Part shown: positions 1,959 through 11,355 of the stretch, in pieces
Numbering within the stretch: the stretch's first letter is position 1
Layout of the letters: each line of letters opens with the position of its first letter
Source of the DNA: Opitutaceae bacterium
Lineage (GTDB): Bacteria; Verrucomicrobiota; Verrucomicrobiia; Opitutales; Opitutaceae
Assembly: GCA_026125215.1 (NCBI GenBank)
Contig: JAHCLN010000015.1
Coordinates: forward strand, 1 to 39,552
DNA: 39,552 nt
Reading direction: 5' to 3'
Made by a program: the position numbers and the translations under genes
The notes under the pieces: generated by a model
Told to the model about the DNA's origin: nothing
Databases searched by the model: none
The model's input: the letters and a program-made list of their open reading frames with translations, nothing else

Positions 1959-2492
1959 ATGTTGCCGTCCATGCGCTGCGCCGAATCCCAAATCCCTCCC
2001 GCCCGCCGCCGCCGCGCCGGGTTCACGCTCGTGGAGGTGATGATGGCTTCGACGGTGCTGCTCGTGGGCTTTGTCGGGATGATGCAGACCATCCTGATCG
2101 GTGCGGAAATGCTCGCGACCGCGCGGCGGCAAAACCTGGCCGCCCAGATCCTGTCGCACGAGGTCGAGATGCTCCGCTTGTTATCATGGTCGGAAATCAC
2201 CGCTCTGCCGACCGGTCAGCCCGTCCCCACCCAGCTCACGGTGGACAGCCAGTTTTCCGCGGCCATCACCGCCGTCGGACTGCGGGCCTCTTCACCGTGG
2301 CAAAGCAATGACACCCTCAAGCTCACCCGCACCTTCACCACCCCCGATCCCGACACGGACCTGCGGGAGGTGAACTTCACCCTGACCTGGACCATGCAAC
2401 CCAGCGGCGGCGCGGCCGTGCGCACCTACACACGGAAGCTTTCCGCTTACTACAGCAAACACGGTCTGAACCTCTCCTACCAGCGCTCGTGA
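1959..2492 (+). CDS. Type IV prepilin-like minor pilin (PilV-like)
   Basis: This is a 177-residue secreted pilin-like protein. A basic leader (PPARRRRAG) is followed by the prepilin peptidase site G^FTLVEV and a hydrophobic helix. Glu5 of the mature protein is present, as needed for assembly into a pilus or pseudopilus. The C-terminal part is a small hydrophilic domain of the PilV/GspI type with no recognised motif. It is the first gene of a run of three pilin-like genes, and its stop overlaps the next start (GTGA at 2489-2492), so the three are probably co-translated. A second ATG at 1971 is an alternative start. The role as a minor pilin is inferred from the leader and gene order. Confidence 0.8.
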   Translation: MLPSMRCAESQIPPARRRRAGFTLVEVMMASTVLLVGFVGMMQTILIGAEMLATARRQNLAAQILSHEVEMLRLLSWSEITALPTGQPVPTQLTVDSQFSAAITAVGLRASSPWQSNDTLKLTRTFTTPDPDTDLREVNFTLTWTMQPSGGAAVRTYTRKLSAYYSKHGLNLSYQRS

Positions 2493-3043
2493 CCACCACC
2501 GCCCGCTCACGCTCCGCCGGCTTTACGATTTCCGAATTGCTGGTTGGCATCACCCTCTCCGGCCTGGTCATGGCGGCGGTGCTCTCCAGCTATGTTTACC
2601 TCGGTCGGAATTTTGCGCGGTTGATGAACCAGCAGACGCTCGAATCGGAAGGCCGGCGGACCGTGCAAACTTTTGCCCGCGATGTGCGCATGGCCGAGGG
2701 TTTCTCGGGCACGCCGACGGCAACCCAGCTCACCCTGGTCCTGCCCGCCGGCAACGTCACCTACGCCTATGACAACACCAACCGGCGGCTCACCCGCACC
2801 CCCGCCGGCGGCAGTGCTTTGGTGCTGCTGCGAAACACGACCGATAACGGCTGCTCTTTCCTCTACTATGACATCGCCTCGCGGGAATACAGCAATCCGG
2901 CCCAGTTCACTCCGGGCATCAAGCAGGTGGCTTTGAGCTTCACCACCCAGACCGGCGTGGCGGCCAATTTTACGCGCACGGGCGTTTACACGGGGGCGAC
3001 TCAGCGGCTGTTGCTGCGCAACAAGGGGCTGCTCGAACCATGA
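2489..3043 (+). CDS. Type IV prepilin-like minor pilin (PilW/GspJ-like)
   Basis: This 184-residue prepilin starts at a GTG that overlaps the previous stop. The leader MTTTARSRSAG is followed by FTISELLVGI, with Glu5 present, then a hydrophobic helix. The body contains the segment RRTVQTFARDVRMAEG, which is common in PilW/GspJ-type minor pilins just after the helix. The C-terminal half is beta-rich by appearance. Its stop at 3041-3043 overlaps the ATG of the next gene at 3040. It probably helps prime pilus assembly with its neighbours; the exact class (PilW or GspJ) cannot be fixed from sequence reading alone. Confidence 0.8.
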   Translation: MTTTARSRSAGFTISELLVGITLSGLVMAAVLSSYVYLGRNFARLMNQQTLESEGRRTVQTFARDVRMAEGFSGTPTATQLTLVLPAGNVTYAYDNTNRRLTRTPAGGSALVLLRNTTDNGCSFLYYDIASREYSNPAQFTPGIKQVALSFTTQTGVAANFTRTGVYTGATQRLLLRNKGLLEP

Positions 3044-5373
3044 GCCGGTCGATCACATCATCCGAACGCGGCACGGTGGTGCTGGTGGCGCTCGGCTTTG
3101 TCACCATCCTCGGAATTGCCGTCGCCGGTTATCTGTCCGTCTGCGTGCAAGCCATGAGGCTGAGCCATCAGGCCTTTGGCGCCGATGTCAGCCGTCAACT
3201 GGCCGAGATGGGGCTGGAACGCGGCCTCCGGGCCTTCAATCGCAACGACTGGTCCGGCTGGACGCTCAGCGGCACCACCGCCACCCGCACGATCACCTTT
3301 CCTGCCGACAAGTTCGGTAGTGTCGGCCTCACCGGCTCGATCAAGCTGCGGGTGGACAACTACAACGCCTACCACCTCGGCGCAACCTGGAGCAGCAGCA
3401 CCGCGTATGTCGTTGGTGATGTGGTAGGATATAATGGAGCGTGGTATCGCTGTATCATAACCCACAATGCCACCACGGCCCTCCCTCCAAATTCGCCTTT
3501 TTGGATGCCAGAGCTTGAGTCCACCGATGTGGAATGGAATTCGGCTACCAGTTACCAAGCGGGAGGGATGGCGCGCCGGAACAGCGTGTGGTATCGCTGC
3601 ATCAGCGCGCATACCAATCAACCGCCTCCGAACGTCGCTTACTGGGTGGTAGTTCCCGCAATCACATTCAATACACCCTTGGTCTACTCCACCAACGCAT
3701 TGGTGTATTACTATGGCAATTGGTATCAGTGGAATGGCGCTTCGTGGAGCGGCGCCAACCCGGCCGGCGTGGCTTGGATCTGGCGCAACACAACCGCCTA
3801 TTCGGTCGGCGACATCGTGTATCGTGGCGGGGTGTGGTATCGCTGCACAACCGCCCACACAAACAATGCACCCCCAAATGCCAGCTTTTGGTCCACCCTT
3901 CAGCCTTCGGGTGAAGCAATAGCGGCCAAGACCTGGAGTTCCAGCACCACCTACAGGGCTTATGATGTGGTCTACCGAGCAGGCTCCTGGTATCGCGCCT
4001 TGCAAGAGCACGCCAATCAGCAACCTCCCAATCCAACCTACTGGGCCAACACCCCAAGCTCCTCGCATCATTGGCGCTCAGGCCGCACTTATCCGGCCAA
4101 CAGTGTGGTCCTGCACAATGGCGTTTGGTATCGCAACACCGCCAGCACCTCGAACCACCCCACTTTAGGCCCATGGTTGAGCGCCGAGACTTCCACCTGG
4201 AACTCCGCCACTGCTTACGGTGTGAACAGCTACGTGAGCTATGGCGGGGTGTGGTATCGCTGCATCGCCGCCCATACCAACCAGTCGCCCAACAAGGCGG
4301 CTTACTGGCAGGCGACCAACGCAGCCGTGCTCTATGCCGAAGGCCGGGCCGCGCAGACCGGGGGAAAGGAGACCGTTGCCCAACTCCGCGCCACGATCGT
4401 TCCGGGCTCACTTTTTCCCAATGCGATCGCCGCCACCGAAACCGTCAGTTTCGGCACCACCGTGCTGGTGGACAGCTATGATTCCACGGCTGGCACCTAC
4501 AACGCCGGCAGCGCCGGCTTCTCCGCGGTGGTGGCAGGCGCAGCCAGCTCCGGCACCGCCGTGACACTCTCCTCGGCCACGGTGAAGGGTTACGTCGCAG
4601 CCACGTCGAGCGACAGTTCGCCCTATGCCCCGCGGGTGAGCTACGCCGGCAGCGCCAGCGTGCGAAACCCGGATGGCAGTGTAACTTCCCCGGCCGCGGG
4701 CGCAGTCAACGTCGATCTCACCCGCCTCAGCCGAAGCCCGTATATCCCGTCCTACGAAGCATCCATGACGACCCACTCTGCGGAAACTCTGGACGGTATT
4801 GGAGACTGGCCGGCAGGGGGCATGACGATCGGGACACCGGGAGCACAAACTCCAACCATCTACGATTACGACGAAGACAACGATGGCGAAGCCGATGGCA
4901 TGTATGTGAACAATCAAGTGCTGACCGTTATCGGTCCGGTTGTTTTGAATGTAGGCGGCCAATTGCGCATTAGAAGCAACGCCAGCAGCAGAATCGTCAT
5001 CACCGAGACCGGCTCCTTGCAGATTAATTTTACCGGCCGGCTGCGGATTCAAAACGGCGGCGGTATCCAAAACCAAACCCTCGATCCCAAAAAACTGACC
5101 TTGGTTGGCACCGGTTCCCACACCAACCACGATCTGCAATCCACCGCCAACCCGTTCTATGGCACCCTCTACCTGCCCAACGGCCGGCTGCAGGTCGCCG
5201 CCAACATGGAAATTTTCGGCGCCGTCTCCGCCAAGAACGTGACCTTCGGCAACAATGCGAAGCTCCACTACGACACCTCCCTGCGCTACACGCCGACCCC
5301 GGGCACGGAGTCGCCCTACGTGATCCGGGAGTGGCGGGAGCTCTCCGCGGTTGCCGAACAGGCCTCGTTCTGA
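3040..5373 (+). CDS. PilX/GspK-like tip pilin with an inserted chitin-binding module array
   Basis: This is a 777-residue protein. Residues 1-12 form a short leader ending SSERG, followed by a hydrophobic helix (TVVLVALGFVTILG) that lacks Glu5, as is usual for PilX/GspK proteins at the pilus tip. Residues 35-110 look like the usual PilX N-terminal region. Residues 116-424 are six clear and one degenerate module of the CBM5/12 (chitin-binding type 3) pattern: W-S/N-S-x-T-x-Y, then a GD-V strand, then G-x-W-Y-R-C, then N-x-x-P-P-N and a final aromatic W. After the array the PilX-like body resumes (LYAEGRAA, then TIVPGSLFPNAI), and the C-terminal 200 residues resemble the beta-rich domain of large pilus-assembly PilX proteins. 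The array therefore sits inside the protein rather than at an end. Carbohydrate binding at a pilus tip is an inference. Confidence 0.78.
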   Translation: MSRSITSSERGTVVLVALGFVTILGIAVAGYLSVCVQAMRLSHQAFGADVSRQLAEMGLERGLRAFNRNDWSGWTLSGTTATRTITFPADKFGSVGLTGSIKLRVDNYNAYHLGATWSSSTAYVVGDVVGYNGAWYRCIITHNATTALPPNSPFWMPELESTDVEWNSATSYQAGGMARRNSVWYRCISAHTNQPPPNVAYWVVVPAITFNTPLVYSTNALVYYYGNWYQWNGASWSGANPAGVAWIWRNTTAYSVGDIVYRGGVWYRCTTAHTNNAPPNASFWSTLQPSGEAIAAKTWSSSTTYRAYDVVYRAGSWYRALQEHANQQPPNPTYWANTPSSSHHWRSGRTYPANSVVLHNGVWYRNTASTSNHPTLGPWLSAETSTWNSATAYGVNSYVSYGGVWYRCIAAHTNQSPNKAAYWQATNAAVLYAEGRAAQTGGKETVAQLRATIVPGSLFPNAIAATETVSFGTTVLVDSYDSTAGTYNAGSAGFSAVVAGAASSGTAVTLSSATVKGYVAATSSDSSPYAPRVSYAGSASVRNPDGSVTSPAAGAVNVDLTRLSRSPYIPSYEASMTTHSAETLDGIGDWPAGGMTIGTPGAQTPTIYDYDEDNDGEADGMYVNNQVLTVIGPVVLNVGGQLRIRSNASSRIVITETGSLQINFTGRLRIQNGGGIQNQTLDPKKLTLVGTGSHTNHDLQSTANPFYGTLYLPNGRLQVAANMEIFGAVSAKNVTFGNNAKLHYDTSLRYTPTPGTESPYVIREWRELSAVAEQASF
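3385..4311 (+). repeat. Array of seven CBM5/12-like coding repeats
   Basis: Within the PilX-like gene, modules lie at residues 116-156, 165-202, 215-240 (short and degenerate), 247-284, 298-335, 344-379 and 386-423. Most share G-[VA]-WYRC and end in an aromatic pair such as PFW, AYW or SFW. At the DNA level the strings TGGCGGGGTGTGGTATCGCT near 3829 and 4243 are the same, which points to fairly recent duplication or gene conversion. Several modules, notably around 3420-3480 and 3660-3740, are richer in A and T than the flanking gene. Confidence 0.8.
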
Positions 5374-5466: not shown

Positions 5467-6510
5467 ATGTCCCTGTTCACCCGCAAGGCGCGCCACGGCG
5501 TGCTTTTTAATCTGACCAGCAACTTCCTCCAGATCGCCCGCATCGAGCATCTGGAAGAGAAGCCGCTGGACCTGCGGGAGTTCGCCGAATTTGGCCCGGA
5601 CGACACCGGGGCCTGGGCCGCTTGGATCAACCGCCACCTCGGGGAGCGGCGACGGGGGCAGTATCATCCCGCTTTTTGCGGGTTCCACCCGCCGGAGCGC
5701 GTGCTCATCCGCGAGATCATCACTCCGCGCCGGCTGACCGAGCCCGGTTATCTGCCGGGCCTCCTCAACGAGCACGCCCGGGTGGCGAACACGCGCGACT
5801 GGATGATCACCGCCCTCAATCCGATGGACGGCACCCCGCTGCCGCCCGAGGGCAATCCCCGCCACGCCCTTATCTTCGCGCTGCCGCGCGATGCCATCCG
5901 CCGCACGCAGGAGCAGCTGCTCAAGCTCGGTCTGCGCCCCCGGCGGCTGGAAGTCAGCACCCTCGGCCTGCTCGGCGCCCTCATCCGCCACCGCGCCCAG
6001 ACCGGTTACGCACACGCCATCGCCGTCTGCGAAATCGAGCTCAACCAAACCCGCCTCTACATCATCGCGAAGGACGGGGTGCACGTCCTCAATCCGCTGC
6101 CCCACGGCCTGCTCTCCATCACCGAGGCCGCGATGAAGGAACTCGACGCGCCCGACGCCGTCATCGCCCGCCGCCTGCTGGAGTCGCCCACCGAGGATCT
6201 GGTGGCCCACGGCCGCAAGCTCACCCGCGTGCTCTCCCGTCACTTCAAGCCCGCCGTGGACCACTTCGAGCTCAAGACCGGCCACCGCATCGATGCGCTC
6301 CACTGCACGCAGCTGCCGACCAAGCTGGCCTGGCTCGCCCCCGCCCTCGGCACCGCCGTGGATCTGCATTTGATCGAGCCCGACCTGGCCGCGCTGATGG
6401 GCGAAGCCGGCCTGAAGGTTTCCGCCGACGGCGAGGCCGTCAGCCCCAACTGGCTGGCCAGCCTCAGCCTCGTCTCCGAACTCGCGCCGCCCGCCGAGGT
6501 CCCCGCATGA
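5467..6510 (+). CDS. PilM-like pilus assembly protein
   Basis: This 347-residue cytoplasmic protein has the general plan of PilM, the actin-fold protein that forms the inner-membrane alignment complex with PilN and PilO. No signal peptide or membrane segment is visible. The sequence is divergent and standard actin-fold phosphate motifs are not obvious, so the assignment rests on length, the segment ELNQTRLYIIAKDG in the expected position and especially gene order: pilin genes before it, and PilN-, PilO- and PilP-like genes after it with four-base overlaps. The start at 5467 is the ATG nearest to a plausible leader. GspL-type proteins of secretion systems are the main alternative. Confidence 0.68.
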   Translation: MSLFTRKARHGVLFNLTSNFLQIARIEHLEEKPLDLREFAEFGPDDTGAWAAWINRHLGERRRGQYHPAFCGFHPPERVLIREIITPRRLTEPGYLPGLLNEHARVANTRDWMITALNPMDGTPLPPEGNPRHALIFALPRDAIRRTQEQLLKLGLRPRRLEVSTLGLLGALIRHRAQTGYAHAIAVCEIELNQTRLYIIAKDGVHVLNPLPHGLLSITEAAMKELDAPDAVIARRLLESPTEDLVAHGRKLTRVLSRHFKPAVDHFELKTGHRIDALHCTQLPTKLAWLAPALGTAVDLHLIEPDLAALMGEAGLKVSADGEAVSPNWLASLSLVSELAPPAEVPA

Positions 6511-7106
6511 GCGCCGAAGTCAACCAGCTCAATCTCAGCCCGCACTGGCACGTGGACTGCCGGCTCGTGGCCGACCTGCCCGAAGACAGCGTCATCGGCG
6601 TCCGCTTCCTCATCAACACCGCGATGGGCGCGATCACCCTCGCCATCCTCCTGGGCACCGCCTGGCTGTTCTACGGCGGCCTCACCATGCGCGAGACGCT
6701 GGGCGACTGGGAAAAACGCCTGGGCGAACGCCGGCAGGAAATCGCCGAGGTCGAAAACATGCAGCTCGCTTTCAACCGGGAGGTCGACGCCGTGGACCTC
6801 GCCCACGAACTCATCCACAGCCGGCTGCCCGTAACCCAGTTCGTGCAGCAACTCGGCCGCACCCGTCCCGACCTCATGGTCATCGATCTCATCGAGCGCA
6901 GCGGCGACCTGATCATCCTGCGCGGTGCCCTGCGTGAATCCTCCGAACGCGCCAGCCGTCTGCTCACCACCCACGTGCAGCGCCTGCGCGAGGACCCCGC
7001 GGTCGGGCCGCCGTTTCAGGACATCGTCATCTCCAGTCTGGAACGCTTCAGCGAGGGCGACCAGATCCGCTTCGAACTCACCTTCCGGCTCAAGCCCGAG
7101 GAATGA
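6507..7106 (+). CDS. PilN-like inner-membrane pilus assembly protein
   Basis: This encodes 199 residues with the PilN plan: a short cytoplasmic N-terminus (MSAEVNQLNLSPHWHVDC), one membrane helix at about residues 34-57 (MGAITLAILLGTAWLFYGGL), a coiled-coil (WEKRLGERRQEIAEVENMQ) and a small periplasmic alpha/beta domain. PilN binds PilM through its N-terminal tail and PilO in the periplasm. The ATG at 6507 overlaps the PilM-like stop (ATGA), which marks translational coupling and decides the start. Much longer open frame upstream of this ATG is shadow of the PilM-like gene. Confidence 0.75.
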   Translation: MSAEVNQLNLSPHWHVDCRLVADLPEDSVIGVRFLINTAMGAITLAILLGTAWLFYGGLTMRETLGDWEKRLGERRQEIAEVENMQLAFNREVDAVDLAHELIHSRLPVTQFVQQLGRTRPDLMVIDLIERSGDLIILRGALRESSERASRLLTTHVQRLREDPAVGPPFQDIVISSLERFSEGDQIRFELTFRLKPEE

Positions 7107-7669
7107 CCATGCTGCGCGCATTTTTTCAAAATCTGCAGCCCACGCTGAAGCGCTACTTTTTCAGCAGCATCTGCGCGGGCCTCAGCCTGCTGCTGCTCAT
7201 CGTCGCCGCGGTCCTGTGGCTCGACCAGCGCAATCTGGAGCAGCGGCTGCAGACGCGCACCGCCCAGGGCGAGGCGGTGCTCGCCGCGCTCGCCGCCGGC
7301 CCGGCCCTGCGCGACACGCTCAACCAGATCAGGGACACCACGGCCAGCATCAACGCCAACCTCATCGAGGAATCCAACCTCGCGGAAAATCTCTGGTATT
7401 TCTACAATTTCGAATCCCAGACCAAAGTGCGGCTGGCCAACCTCCAGCAGTTGTTCACCCCCGGAGGCGGAGCCGGCGACGCCACCTACAAGCTCATCCC
7501 CTACTCGCTCCGGGTCACCGGCACCTTCCCGCAGGTGATGGATTTTCTGCAAAAACTCGAAACCGGCCCCAAGCTCGCCAAGATCCGCAACTTCAGCCTC
7601 AACCGCCTCGACGCGGAGGGCGTCAACGTCGCCCTCCAGATTGACGTCGTCCTGCTCGGCAAGCCATGA
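7103..7669 (+). CDS. PilO-like inner-membrane pilus assembly protein
   Basis: This 188-residue protein has one membrane helix at about residues 20-42 (FSSICAGLSLLLLIVAAVLW), a coiled-coil (DQRNLEQRLQTRTAQGEAVL) and a periplasmic ferredoxin-like domain with the strand pair IPYSLRVTGTFPQVMDFLQK, a segment typical of PilO. It is expected to pair with the PilN-like protein. The ATG at 7103 overlaps the previous stop by four bases, and the next gene overlaps its own stop in the same way, so 5467-8133 behaves as one coupled set. Confidence 0.78.
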   Translation: MTMLRAFFQNLQPTLKRYFFSSICAGLSLLLLIVAAVLWLDQRNLEQRLQTRTAQGEAVLAALAAGPALRDTLNQIRDTTASINANLIEESNLAENLWYFYNFESQTKVRLANLQQLFTPGGGAGDATYKLIPYSLRVTGTFPQVMDFLQKLETGPKLAKIRNFSLNRLDAEGVNVALQIDVVLLGKP

Positions 7670-8133
7670 ACGCCTCCCGCCGCCTCGCCCTCGTTTTCCT
7701 CGTGCTCGCGGTGCTCGCCCCCGCGCACGGCCTCACGCCCATCGACCTCGCGCGCCTCAAACAGACCAGCGACCGCATCAACCAGCTTTACCAGCCGCGG
7801 ACCGGCACGCCGCCGCCGGTCAACCCCCGGCACAACCCCTTCCGCATCGGCGCCGAGCCCGTGCCGGTGGACACCCGCGGACAGGAAGACCCCGGCCTCG
7901 TCGTCACGGACGACGAAACCCTCCTGCGCCAGGCAGCGGCCACCCTCAAAATCAGTGGCGTGATGGAGCTCAACGGCACCCTGCGCCTCTCCATCAACAC
8001 CGCCAACTACGGCGTGGGCGATGTGCTGCAGGTCCGGCTCGGCAGCGGCAACGTTTTCCTCCGCGTGGCCGCCATCGCGCCCCGCAGTGTCACCCTCCGC
8101 CTCAACGCCGCGGAGCTCGTGCTCCCGTTCTGA
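7666..8133 (+). CDS. Small secreted protein in the PilP position
   Basis: This 155-residue protein has an N-terminal signal peptide (MNASRRLALVFLVLAVLAPAHG) without a lipobox cysteine. A proline-rich linker (RTGTPPPVNPRHNPF) leads into a compact C-terminal beta domain ending in AELVLPF. In canonical pilMNOPQ operons this position is held by the PilP lipoprotein, which connects the inner-membrane complex to the secretin. The plan of linker plus small beta domain fits, but the lipid anchor is absent and sequence similarity is not evident by eye. No secretin gene follows. The functional call is therefore positional. Confidence 0.5.
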   Translation: MNASRRLALVFLVLAVLAPAHGLTPIDLARLKQTSDRINQLYQPRTGTPPPVNPRHNPFRIGAEPVPVDTRGQEDPGLVVTDDETLLRQAAATLKISGVMELNGTLRLSINTANYGVGDVLQVRLGSGNVFLRVAAIAPRSVTLRLNAAELVLPF

Positions 8134-8433: not shown

Positions 8434-11355
8434 ATGACACCAAGCCTGCAACGGCTGCTGCTTCTCGCAGCCCTGCTGGGCGGCGCCACCCTCGCGTCAG
8501 CCCAACCCGCGCCCGCCCCGGCGCCCAAGCCCACGGAGGCGGAGACCAAGTCCGCCGACGAAACTGAAGACACCGATGGCGACGGCACCATCAGGGCCAT
8601 CCGCCTTGAGGCCGTCGAGATCACCGGCTCGCGCATCCGCCGCCTCGAAGTCGAGGGGCCATCGCCGGTCAGCACCTACGATCGCGATTTCATCCGGGCC
8701 ACCGGCGCGCTCACGCTGGCGGACTTCATGAATTACCTGCCGCAAAACTACACCGGCATCGGCGCCGGCCGCGGCAGCGCGCCCAATGAACTCAACCCCG
8801 AGTTCGGTCAGCGCACGGAAACAACACTGCCGGCTTTCAACTTCGTGATGGGCTCCTCCGCCGCGGCTCCCGGCCAAACCGGCGTCTCCGGCGTGAGCCT
8901 CCGCGGCCTGGGCTCCGGTTCCACCCTCGTGCTGGTGGACGGCCGCCGCGCCGCCCAGTCGGGCGCCGGCAACCGCTCAACCGACTCGCGCCAGGGTTTC
9001 GTGGACCTGAACACCATTCCGCTCGGCATGGTGGACCGCATTGAGGTCGTGACCGACGGTGCCTCCGCCATTTACGGCGCCGACGCCGTCGCCGGCGTGA
9101 TCAACGTCATCCTCAAGAAGGATTGGACCGGCCACGAGCTGACCGGCACCTTCAAGGGCTCCGAACACGGCGGCGGGCGCGAGCGCTCGCTCACCCTCAC
9201 CAGCGGTTTTGCCGACGGCAAGCTGCGCGGCACCGTCTCGCTCAGCTACTACGACCGCGCCCCTCTGAAGGCCTCCCAGCGTTCGTTCTCCAAGAACCAG
9301 GACCACCGGAACATCGTCGCCGGCACCAACACCGACGGCACGCCGATCTACGGCCGCGACCTGCGCCTGAACTGGGGTTACCCGGCCGTTGTGCAGGCCC
9401 AGCCCGCCGTGCCCGGCGACTTTGTTGCCCTGCCCGGTATCCGCGTCGTGCTGGTGCCGGAGGGTGCCACGGCCACGCCCGGGATCTCGGGTTTTATCCC
9501 GGTGACCACACCGGTGCCGCCAAACACCAACGTCTTCGCGACCGGCCAGCGGCGCGCCAACACGGCGGAATTCCTCGACATCATCCCCGCCTCCGAGCGG
9601 GAGGGTATCGCCGGCAACTTCACCTACGAGATTTCCCCGACGTTGGATTTGTATGGCAAGTTTGGTTACAACGAGACCTTCGGTTTCTACAACAGCCAGC
9701 CCGCGGTCTCCTCGGCCTCCGCCACCTCCGGCTTCGGCAACTTCTCGACGCTTGTGCCGGCCGCGCTGAATCCGTTCAACCAGAACGTCATCGTCGGCAT
9801 GGTCCACTATGAGTTCGGCTCAATCTGGCAAAAGACCACCACCCGCGCCTACGACGGCCTGATCGGTCTGCGCGGCCAGGTCGGCGAGACCTGGTTCTGG
9901 GACAGCGGCTACGGCGTTCAGCGCAACCGCGTGGGCCAGATCACCCGCAATTTCAACGGGGCGCGCATCAGCGCCGCCCTCTCCAGTGGTGCCCTCAATC
10001 CCTTCATCGATGCCCGCGCCACCGGCCCCATCCATGCCGCGGTCTATGAAACCATGGCCCTCTACCCCTACCGCAATGCCTCCAGCGAACTCGTGACCTG
10101 GGATTTCCAAGCCAGCGGCCACTTGTTTGAATTCTGGGGCGGGCCGGTGCAGCTGGCCTTCGGCGGCGTTTACAACCGGGCAGAAAACTCGGAGGTGGCG
10201 GTCAACTACTCCACCGCCGTCACCCCGGTGTCCAGCGCCTCGTTCGCCGAGGGCGTGCAGCATTCCCGCGCGGCCTTTGCCGAACTCTCCGTGCCCTTTG
10301 TCGGCAAGCCCAACGCCATGCCGGGTGTCCGCCGGCTGGAGCTCCAGCTCGCCGGCCGCTACGAGGACTACAACCGCGCGGGCGACTCCACGGTGCCGAA
10401 GATCGGCTTCACGTGGGTGCCCGTCGATTCAATCCTCCTCCGCGGCAGCTTCTCCGAGGGCTTCCGGGCGCCCGCACTGACCGAGTATCAGGTGGCCAAT
10501 ACCGTCTCGACCGGCACTGTGCAGGACCCGCGCCGCACGCCGCCCGCCACCACGGGGGTCACGCTGACCCGCGGAGCCAACGGCAACATCAAGCCTGAGA
10601 CCTCGCAGAACGAGTTCTACGGCATCATCATCGAGCCGCCGGTGGCCAAGGGCCTGAGCTTCGGCGTGGACTACTACCGCACGACGCAGGAGAACGTCAT
10701 CCAGACGCTCTCGGCCCAGACCATCATCAACAACGAGAATCTGTTCGCCAGCCGCATCACCCGCGCGACCCCGGATGCCACCGACACCTCGCTGAGCCAG
10801 CCGGGCCGTATCACCGCCGTGGACATCACCTTTGTGAATTTCGGCAAGGTGGAGAACGAGAGCCTCGACTTCCTCGTGAACTACGACCTGCCCTGGCAGG
10901 ATCTCGGCCGCTGGCGTATGGTGGTCTCCGCCACCAAGACGCTGAAGTCCACCCGCGAGCTTGCCCCCGGCCTGCCGCCGGTGATCGACGAAGGCGACAC
11001 CTTCGCGCCGCCGGAATGGCGCTACAACGCATCGGTGTTCTGGAGCAAGGGACCGTGGAACGCCTCGCTGTTCTACACCTACATTGACAGCTTTGCCACG
11101 AACCTCGCCGGCAACTCGCTCGCCTCCACCTATCCCGTGCCCTCGGCCTCGAAGCTCGATGTGCGCGCCGGCTACGAGTTCAAGAACGGCGTGTGGCGCG
11201 GCTACGCCAAGGGCTTCCGCATTATCGGCGGCATCGGCAACGTCTTCGACAAGGAGCCGCCGTTCTCCGACACGGTCTTCGGCTACAATGGCGGTCTGCA
11301 CGGCTCGTTCGCCCTCGGGCGCAGCTACGAACTGTCCTTTGTGCTGCCCTTCTGA
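8434..11355 (+). CDS. TonB-dependent outer-membrane receptor
   Basis: This 973-residue protein has a signal peptide (about residues 1-23, cleavage near ASAQ) and a low-complexity linker rich in Ala, Pro and Glu. A plug domain spans about residues 60-230, containing LEAVEITGSRIRR and, from residue 190, the conserved VDLNTIPLGMVDRIEV followed by DGASAIYGADAVAGVINVI. A 22-strand-type barrel fills the rest, with the family SEGFRAPALTEYQ segment and a terminal aromatic (VLPF), the usual outer-membrane insertion signal. Such receptors import large or scarce ligands using TonB energy. The ligand cannot be inferred: there is no adjacent SusD, iron-uptake or vitamin gene. The gene is monocistronic, with a strong terminator 24 bp after its stop. 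Confidence 0.93.
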   Translation: MTPSLQRLLLLAALLGGATLASAQPAPAPAPKPTEAETKSADETEDTDGDGTIRAIRLEAVEITGSRIRRLEVEGPSPVSTYDRDFIRATGALTLADFMNYLPQNYTGIGAGRGSAPNELNPEFGQRTETTLPAFNFVMGSSAAAPGQTGVSGVSLRGLGSGSTLVLVDGRRAAQSGAGNRSTDSRQGFVDLNTIPLGMVDRIEVVTDGASAIYGADAVAGVINVILKKDWTGHELTGTFKGSEHGGGRERSLTLTSGFADGKLRGTVSLSYYDRAPLKASQRSFSKNQDHRNIVAGTNTDGTPIYGRDLRLNWGYPAVVQAQPAVPGDFVALPGIRVVLVPEGATATPGISGFIPVTTPVPPNTNVFATGQRRANTAEFLDIIPASEREGIAGNFTYEISPTLDLYGKFGYNETFGFYNSQPAVSSASATSGFGNFSTLVPAALNPFNQNVIVGMVHYEFGSIWQKTTTRAYDGLIGLRGQVGETWFWDSGYGVQRNRVGQITRNFNGARISAALSSGALNPFIDARATGPIHAAVYETMALYPYRNASSELVTWDFQASGHLFEFWGGPVQLAFGGVYNRAENSEVAVNYSTAVTPVSSASFAEGVQHSRAAFAELSVPFVGKPNAMPGVRRLELQLAGRYEDYNRAGDSTVPKIGFTWVPVDSILLRGSFSEGFRAPALTEYQVANTVSTGTVQDPRRTPPATTGVTLTRGANGNIKPETSQNEFYGIIIEPPVAKGLSFGVDYYRTTQENVIQTLSAQTIINNENLFASRITRATPDATDTSLSQPGRITAVDITFVNFGKVENESLDFLVNYDLPWQDLGRWRMVVSATKTLKSTRELAPGLPPVIDEGDTFAPPEWRYNASVFWSKGPWNASLFYTYIDSFATNLAGNSLASTYPVPSASKLDVRAGYEFKNGVWRGYAKGFRIIGGIGNVFDKEPPFSDTVFGYNGGLHGSFALGRSYELSFVLPF

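Follow-up and report, generated by a model that had tools for sequence, protein, structure and literature searches.

The third minor pilin gene of a PilV-PilW-PilX-PilMNOP operon in an Opitutaceae genome encodes a PilX-like protein that, judged from its sequence and a predicted model, has the build of a tip-located modular pilin, with a string of about seven CBM5/12 modules set inside its head. The reading that we favour, and consider probable, is that PilX is a tip-capping modular minor pilin of a type IV pilus that acts as a multivalent polysaccharide adhesin. Its tip location would follow from family and fold, while multivalent binding of glycans and pilus retraction on the substrate are what we infer for its function. 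The array probably grips polysaccharide surfaces, is old by the standard of its sequences, and lacks the residue that would make chitin the default guess for its ligand.

The Operon and the N-Terminus of PilX

The window (the whole 39,552-nucleotide stretch of DNA that was analysed) is part of one contig of a 3.46 Mb draft genome, and carries the operon in the following order, which is also found in relatives (synteny):

1959-2492, + strand: PilV-like minor pilin with Glu5, without a module in this genome (Pfam N_methyl)
2489-3043, + strand: PilW-like minor pilin, Glu5 present (Pfam N_methyl)
3040-5373, + strand: 777-aa K-type minor pilin, PilX/ComZ-like, bearing the CBM5/12 array (open reading frame; Pfam; AlphaFold2 and ComZ match)
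5467-6510, + strand: PilM-like (NCBIfam pilM, weak, E=3e-4; synteny)
6507-7106, + strand: PilN-like (position and synteny)
7103-7669, + strand: PilO/GspM-like (Pfam PilO, 3.3e-5; NCBIfam GspM XpsM type, 1.7e-6, under the cut-off)
7666-8133, + strand: PilP-like (position and synteny; no match in Pfam or NCBIfam)

PilX thus stands after an I-like PilV and a J-like PilW, in the place of a K-type subunit. The start codon (ATG) of its gene shares four bases with the end of the PilW-like gene, which points to coupled translation, and the PilW-like gene in turn overlaps the PilV-like gene. The genome also encodes PilT, PilB-like ATPases and three secretins (PilQ-like, Amuc_1098-like and GspD-like), and GspE/GspD-like genes are located on contig C154.

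The preliminary description had placed the protein among the PilX/GspK-like pilins that lack Glu5, and this assignment holds. Cleavage is predicted at RG/TVVLV (the slash marking the cut), so that residue 5 is valine instead of glutamate, and Glu5 occurs in none of the 44 readable N-termini among 49 PilX proteins including the query (the N-terminal pattern matched 47 of the 49 rows, three of them in the body of the protein, and left G137 and G173 unmatched). An RG/xVxLV start is conserved in relatives and is followed by a predicted hydrophobic helix (residues 10-68), as expected of a class III prepilin signal with its pilin helix. The Pfam N_methyl model matches both upstream pilins and has no match in PilX. 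Two papers describe the tip complex of type 4 filaments as topped by a subunit that lacks Glu5 (PMC10191384; PMC9934059).

The Module Array and the Fold of PilX

An AlphaFold2 model of PilX was built from 14 aligned homologues and has a mean pLDDT of 68.5, with low values between the modules and weak ones in several modules. It runs from the helix at 10-68 through strands 80-87 and 97-106 to the array at 116-425, continues with strands 430-439 and 445-455 into a beta-solenoid reaching to about residue 747, and closes with a last strand at 760-767. The features of the protein are as follows:

3067-3243, + strand: hydrophobic N-terminal pilin helix without Glu5, residues 10-68 (AlphaFold2; alignment)
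3277-3357, + strand: first two pilin strands, residues 80-87 and 97-106, before the array (AlphaFold2)
3385-3510, + strand: module 1, residues 116-157, CBM5/12 (module HMM; best Pfam stretch 116-153)
3532-3651, + strand: module 2, residues 165-204, CBM5/12 (module HMM)
3652-3777, + strand: module 3, residues ~205-246, distinct divergent type (in register in seven genomes; missed by the module HMM)
3778-3897, + strand: module 4, residues 247-286, CBM5/12 (module HMM)
3931-4053, + strand: module 5, residues 298-338, CBM5/12 (module HMM)
4069-4182, + strand: module 6, residues 344-381, CBM5/12, without the Cys and the PPN motif (module HMM)
4195-4317, + strand: module 7, residues 386-426, CBM5/12 (module HMM)
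4327-4404, + strand: pilin strands after the array, residues 430-439 and 445-455 (AlphaFold2)
4405-5280, + strand: beta-solenoid body, residues 456-747, DUF3494/ComZ-like fold (VIA-align; Pfam)
4480-4524, + strand: solenoid loop, residues 481-495, which holds a second array of eight modules in G001 and G004 (alignment)
4924-5286, + strand: DUF7305 match, residues 629-749 (Pfam, E=5e-13)

The identity of the modules and their internal position, both proposed from the sequence beforehand, are borne out by domain search and structure prediction. Pfam CBM_5_12, a domain that is not specific to type IV pilus proteins, matches PilX in five stretches (E=3.8e-26, 91.3 bits against a cut-off of 26.2), and an HMM of the module, for which eight seeds were picked by hand, the six window modules among them, delimits the six CBM5/12 units listed above. 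Among PDB chains, sequence comparison also leads to CBM5/12 (1ed7, E=9.4e-6). In the predicted model the modules adopt the three-stranded CBM5/12 fold, a single module aligning with the CBM of chitinase C (1wvv_B) at Z 7.7 and rmsd 1.7 over 47 residues and with 4tx8 at Z 7.4 and rmsd 1.4, where a Z below 8 is middling for VIA-align 2. The model inserts the whole array between pilin strands 97-106 and 430-439. Similar modules are present in phage tail fibres.

As to the rest of the head, the best PDB match of the model is ComZ of Thermus thermophilus (Foldseek, E=4.4e-5), with a low whole-chain TM-score (by query length, 0.12-0.17). Aligned separately with VIA-align 2, the solenoid (456-747) matches ComZ (6qvi_C) at Z 14.4 and rmsd 3.7 over 240 residues, and DUF3494 ice-binding proteins at Z 17.2 (7bwy). 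The predicted arrangement, a beta-solenoid within a pilin fold whose last strand (760-767) returns after the solenoid, is that of ComZ. The ComZ paper compares the pilin part of that protein with GspK and its solenoid with FfIBP, and argues for a position at the tip (PMC6561018).

Age and Spread of the Array

The preliminary description counted six clear modules and one degenerate one, and read the identity between distant modules as a sign of recent expansion. The six modules stand, while the seventh, the third unit of the array, is a conserved type of its own: in several of seven genomes from four genera it reads '..LVNWYGTWYRWN.GG.WD..PPISW'-like, and its recurrence at this very place in all seven argues that it is not decaying. 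These genomes share a common plan of two units, the distinct third and four more; they are a selected set, picked for a long gap after module 2. Between genera, units at the same position are 44.0% identical against 33.9% for units at other positions, and 2000 shuffles gave a mean of 35.3 and a maximum of 38.4. In 65 of 119 between-genera comparisons the best match was the unit at the same position, and module 7 of the window is 72% identical in amino acids to the last module of G002. The modules of the window are only 32-52% identical to each other in protein and 51-65% in DNA, and among 13 first-site arrays with at least five modules no pair exceeds 54% identity. Recent expansion is rejected because module identity is this low and the register of the seven-unit array is kept across four genera; on these sequences, the array is old. 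Duplication in blocks of three was likewise dropped, since identity does not rise at a lag of three units (36.4, compared with 36.1 and 36.0 at lags of one and two).

In a tree of the C-terminal body, a single branch (SH-aLRT 95) separates the array-bearing PilX proteins from the others, which fits a single origin of this group. The tree is unrooted and has 49 rows, 34 with and 15 without an array, the latter taken from the better-scoring matches; G200, whose protein is cut by a contig end, was excluded. PilX homologues without the insertion, with which a comparison had been suggested, do exist at the same locus and have open frames of mostly 440-550 amino acids. The PilX body was detected in 134 of 252 family genomes (E<=1e-15), hence most homologues are without an array.

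PF02839 was matched in 38 of the 252 family genomes, in PilX and/or PilV of the operon in 32 and elsewhere in six. Three genomes (G019, G103 and G195) were added by way of PilX, giving 35 Opitutaceae genomes with modules in PilX. At the first site the counts range from 1 to 10 modules, and many arrays have 3, 6 or 9. Past the point where the C-terminal profile begins to match, a further eight modules are found in G001, G004 and G089 and one further module in G098, G124 and G181; in G001, with a protein of 1012 aa, and in G004 the alignment puts this second array in a solenoid loop. PilV is visible in 34 array genomes and carries one or two modules in 16 of them, all 16 also decorated in PilX; PilW is free of modules in 34 of 34. 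The PilV modules follow '..LPLGTSYT' in G019 and, in G004 and G001, 'IDSRF' or the sequence equivalent to it, so that PilV, too, has two insertion sites. That the decorated PilV is a pilin rests on its sequence: the best Foldseek matches of its model were phage fibres and chitinase CBMs, with no pilin among them. In the phylum sample, CBM5/12 was matched in 34 genomes, 28 of them outside the family; the loci of the best matches (within L147-L171), which come from part of those 28, gave no match to PilV, PilW or PilX.

The Possible Ligand of the Modules

Residues of the fold core are kept in most of 196 modules, a set compiled before the last loci were added (Trp in 187, Tyr in 190, Tyr in 191 and Trp in 189). 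In chitinase A1, chitin is bound through an exposed Trp687, together with Gln679. None of the six window modules has a Trp at the position of Trp687; in that stretch of the sequence, a Trp was found in two of the 196 modules, both in the same protein and in a probably misaligned 'NWA' segment. The equivalent of Gln679 is Gln in one of the six window modules and in 20 of the 196. The stretch of the binding Trp, from the strand-2 Tyr up to the Pro, is free of aromatic residues in six of six window modules and 165 of the 196. CBM5 modules of known structure rely on an exposed Tyr-Trp pair (PMC8449059), the pair expected of a chitin-binding module of the CjCBM5 kind. A Trp (for example W266 and W405 of PilX) adjoins the strand-2 Tyr in 122 of the 196 modules, and a Tyr immediately precedes the last Trp in 120.

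Genome content gives no link between array and chitinase. A search of the five genomes of the genus turned up no GH18 chitinase, and across the family GH18 was matched in 17 of the 252 genomes, only three of which (G090, G124 and G200, a single one over the cut-off) are among the 35 array genomes; among chitin-active families the search covered GH18. The empty Trp position and the scarcity of GH18 make chitin unlikely as the default guess, and the attachment to chitin envisaged in the preliminary description thus finds no support. The ligand is probably not chitin bound in the manner of chitinase A1, and in this branch of CBM5/12 it should differ from chitin. With the chitin-binding Trp position empty, the modules could also be spacers or bind protein.

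Proposed Role and Alternatives

We propose that the N-terminal helix of PilX packs into the pilus core and that PilX, being without Glu5, goes in first and forms the tip, below which come the I-like PilV and the J-like PilW. The head would carry two inserts in its pilin sheet, a ComZ-type beta-solenoid and the CBM5/12 string, of which about seven modules of 40 residues would emerge from a loop connecting two pilin strands. Each module may then make a weak contact, and many of these together would hold the tip to a polysaccharide surface, to which PilT-driven retraction would pull the cell.

A variant with a modest chance of being correct, in effect a sub-case of the tip-adhesin explanation, is that the modules bind exopolysaccharide or surface glycan of the cell itself or of its neighbours instead of a food polymer, and so serve aggregation or social motility. 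It draws on the same module type in phage tail fibres and in receptor-binding parts that touch bacterial surfaces, and on the missing chitinase link.

Less likely is a pilus tip of the ComZ kind for DNA uptake (competence), in which the modules would be an anchor near a DNA-rich polysaccharide matrix, or spacers. ComZ is the top fold match, its solenoid matches that of PilX, and it is described as a DNA-binding protein and DNA receptor (PMC6561018). However, DUF3494 ice-binding proteins have this solenoid fold too and match even more closely, hence the fold does not tell the function.

The operon could also serve a type II secretion (T2SS)-like pseudopilus, with PilX as its K subunit and the modules selecting or docking exoenzymes or polysaccharide in the periplasm; the under-threshold GspM score (XpsM type) of the PilO-like protein and the GspE/GspD-like genes on C154 speak for this, but the PilMNOP-type neighbours, PilT and the PilQ-like secretin in the genome make it improbable. 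A chitin-specific tip adhesin, as the Pfam family name CBM_5_12 and the nearest PDB domains (from chitinases and chitin deacetylases) would suggest, is similarly improbable in view of the residues and GH18 counts given above.

Relation to Known Pilins and Adhesins

Adhesion by modular pilins has been best studied in Streptococcus sanguinis. The modular type IV pilins of this species comprise PilB with a vWA module and PilC with a lectin module (PMC8179133; PMC9934059), the grafting of carbohydrate-binding domains onto pilins is known, and internal insertion in pilins is known for ComZ and GspK (PMC8179133). PilX resembles the S. sanguinis proteins in that a non-pilus domain is grafted onto a minor pilin with a predicted tip position and adhesive role, and PilC in particular in that this domain is a carbohydrate-binding module. 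In contrast to PilB and PilC, whose extra domain is located at the C-terminus, PilX has its modules inside the head, and it further differs in its array of about seven CBM5/12 units, the two sites in PilX, the additional decoration of PilV and the lack of Glu5. With ComZ (6qvi) it shares a beta-solenoid inserted in the pilin sheet and an argued tip position, whereas ComZ is a DNA receptor for which the accessible text reports no CBM array (PMC6561018). Another known pilin also has a repeat array, which consists of a different domain of unknown function. Compared with CBM5/12 (1ed7, 1wvv/2d49), the modules agree in profile, core Trp and Tyr residues and predicted fold, and differ from those of chitinases in a shortened chitin-contact loop without the Trp and in a new strand-2 Trp. 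In the literature searched, which was mostly non-subscription, no CBM5/12 array in a minor pilin was found; against this literature, the array itself, its place in the head, the conservation of its register and its extension to another site in PilX and into PilV appear new.

PilY1 is the usual tip adhesin of type IV pili. Like PilC/PilY1, PilX would fill the role of an adhesive pilus cap, with the difference that its adhesive part is built into the pilin. The PilY1 domain (PF05567) was absent from the PilX open reading frame and from all of 57 relatives (0/57); its model matched one of 387 phylum genomes (G315, outside the family), hence it is able to detect the domain, and had no match in 14 control genomes. 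A more far-reaching and tentative idea is that the Opitutaceae tip has turned into a reader of glycans in place of PilY1, by way of an ancient, position-specific array derived from CBM5/12 that sits in the K-type pilin and, in many lineages, in PilV as well, with a remodelled face for a non-chitin polysaccharide and possibly with a specificity for each position.

Within one family, these proteins form a natural series of tip pilins with 0, 1, 3, 6-7 or 11 modules in two places, with PilV decorated or not, which would allow the effects of valency and placement on the grip of a pilus tip on polysaccharide to be measured, in a system where no PilY1 was found. Polymer-degrading Verrucomicrobiota are mostly uncultivated; if the proposed binding is true, it would explain how they attach to particles.

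PilX-like pilins and the pilus locus

The window's genome encodes two additional PilX-like solenoid pilins, of 648 and 487 aa, on contig C24 (L052:5960-10480, -), which have their own PilV/PilW-like neighbours and carry no modules. Among the array-bearing homologues, the PilX of genome G178 is interrupted by a stop inside the array and reads as two open frames (L132:2-2425, +), and this split gene is either a real pseudogene or the product of an assembly error. A cysteine in the hydrophobic N-terminal start (LVALC, residues ~12-19) is common to many PilX homologues and is absent from the window protein, which reads LVALG there. The pilus genes of the window are followed immediately on their 3' side by:

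8434-11355, +, TonB-dependent receptor

Such a receptor also follows the pilus genes in genome G003, and none adjoining the pilus genes was detected in the other compared loci.

PilY1 and CBM5/12-type modules in other proteins

PilY1 is the usual tip adhesin, and among 387 genomes of the phylum the sole match to its domain lies in a 1439-aa frame of G315 (L174), a member of the same order; a further frame of that genome, 4221 aa long, matches CBM5/12. Modules like those of the window are found in phage records as well, namely in Synechococcus phage tail fibres and in Vibrio phage proteins, and similar ones occur in structures of the Agrobacterium phages Milano and 7-7-1 (PDB 8fqc, 9rkv). In G053, also of the same order, CBM5/12-type modules occupy the variable middle region of a flagellin-like protein (L089:3855-5555, -), a further filament bearing modules of this type.
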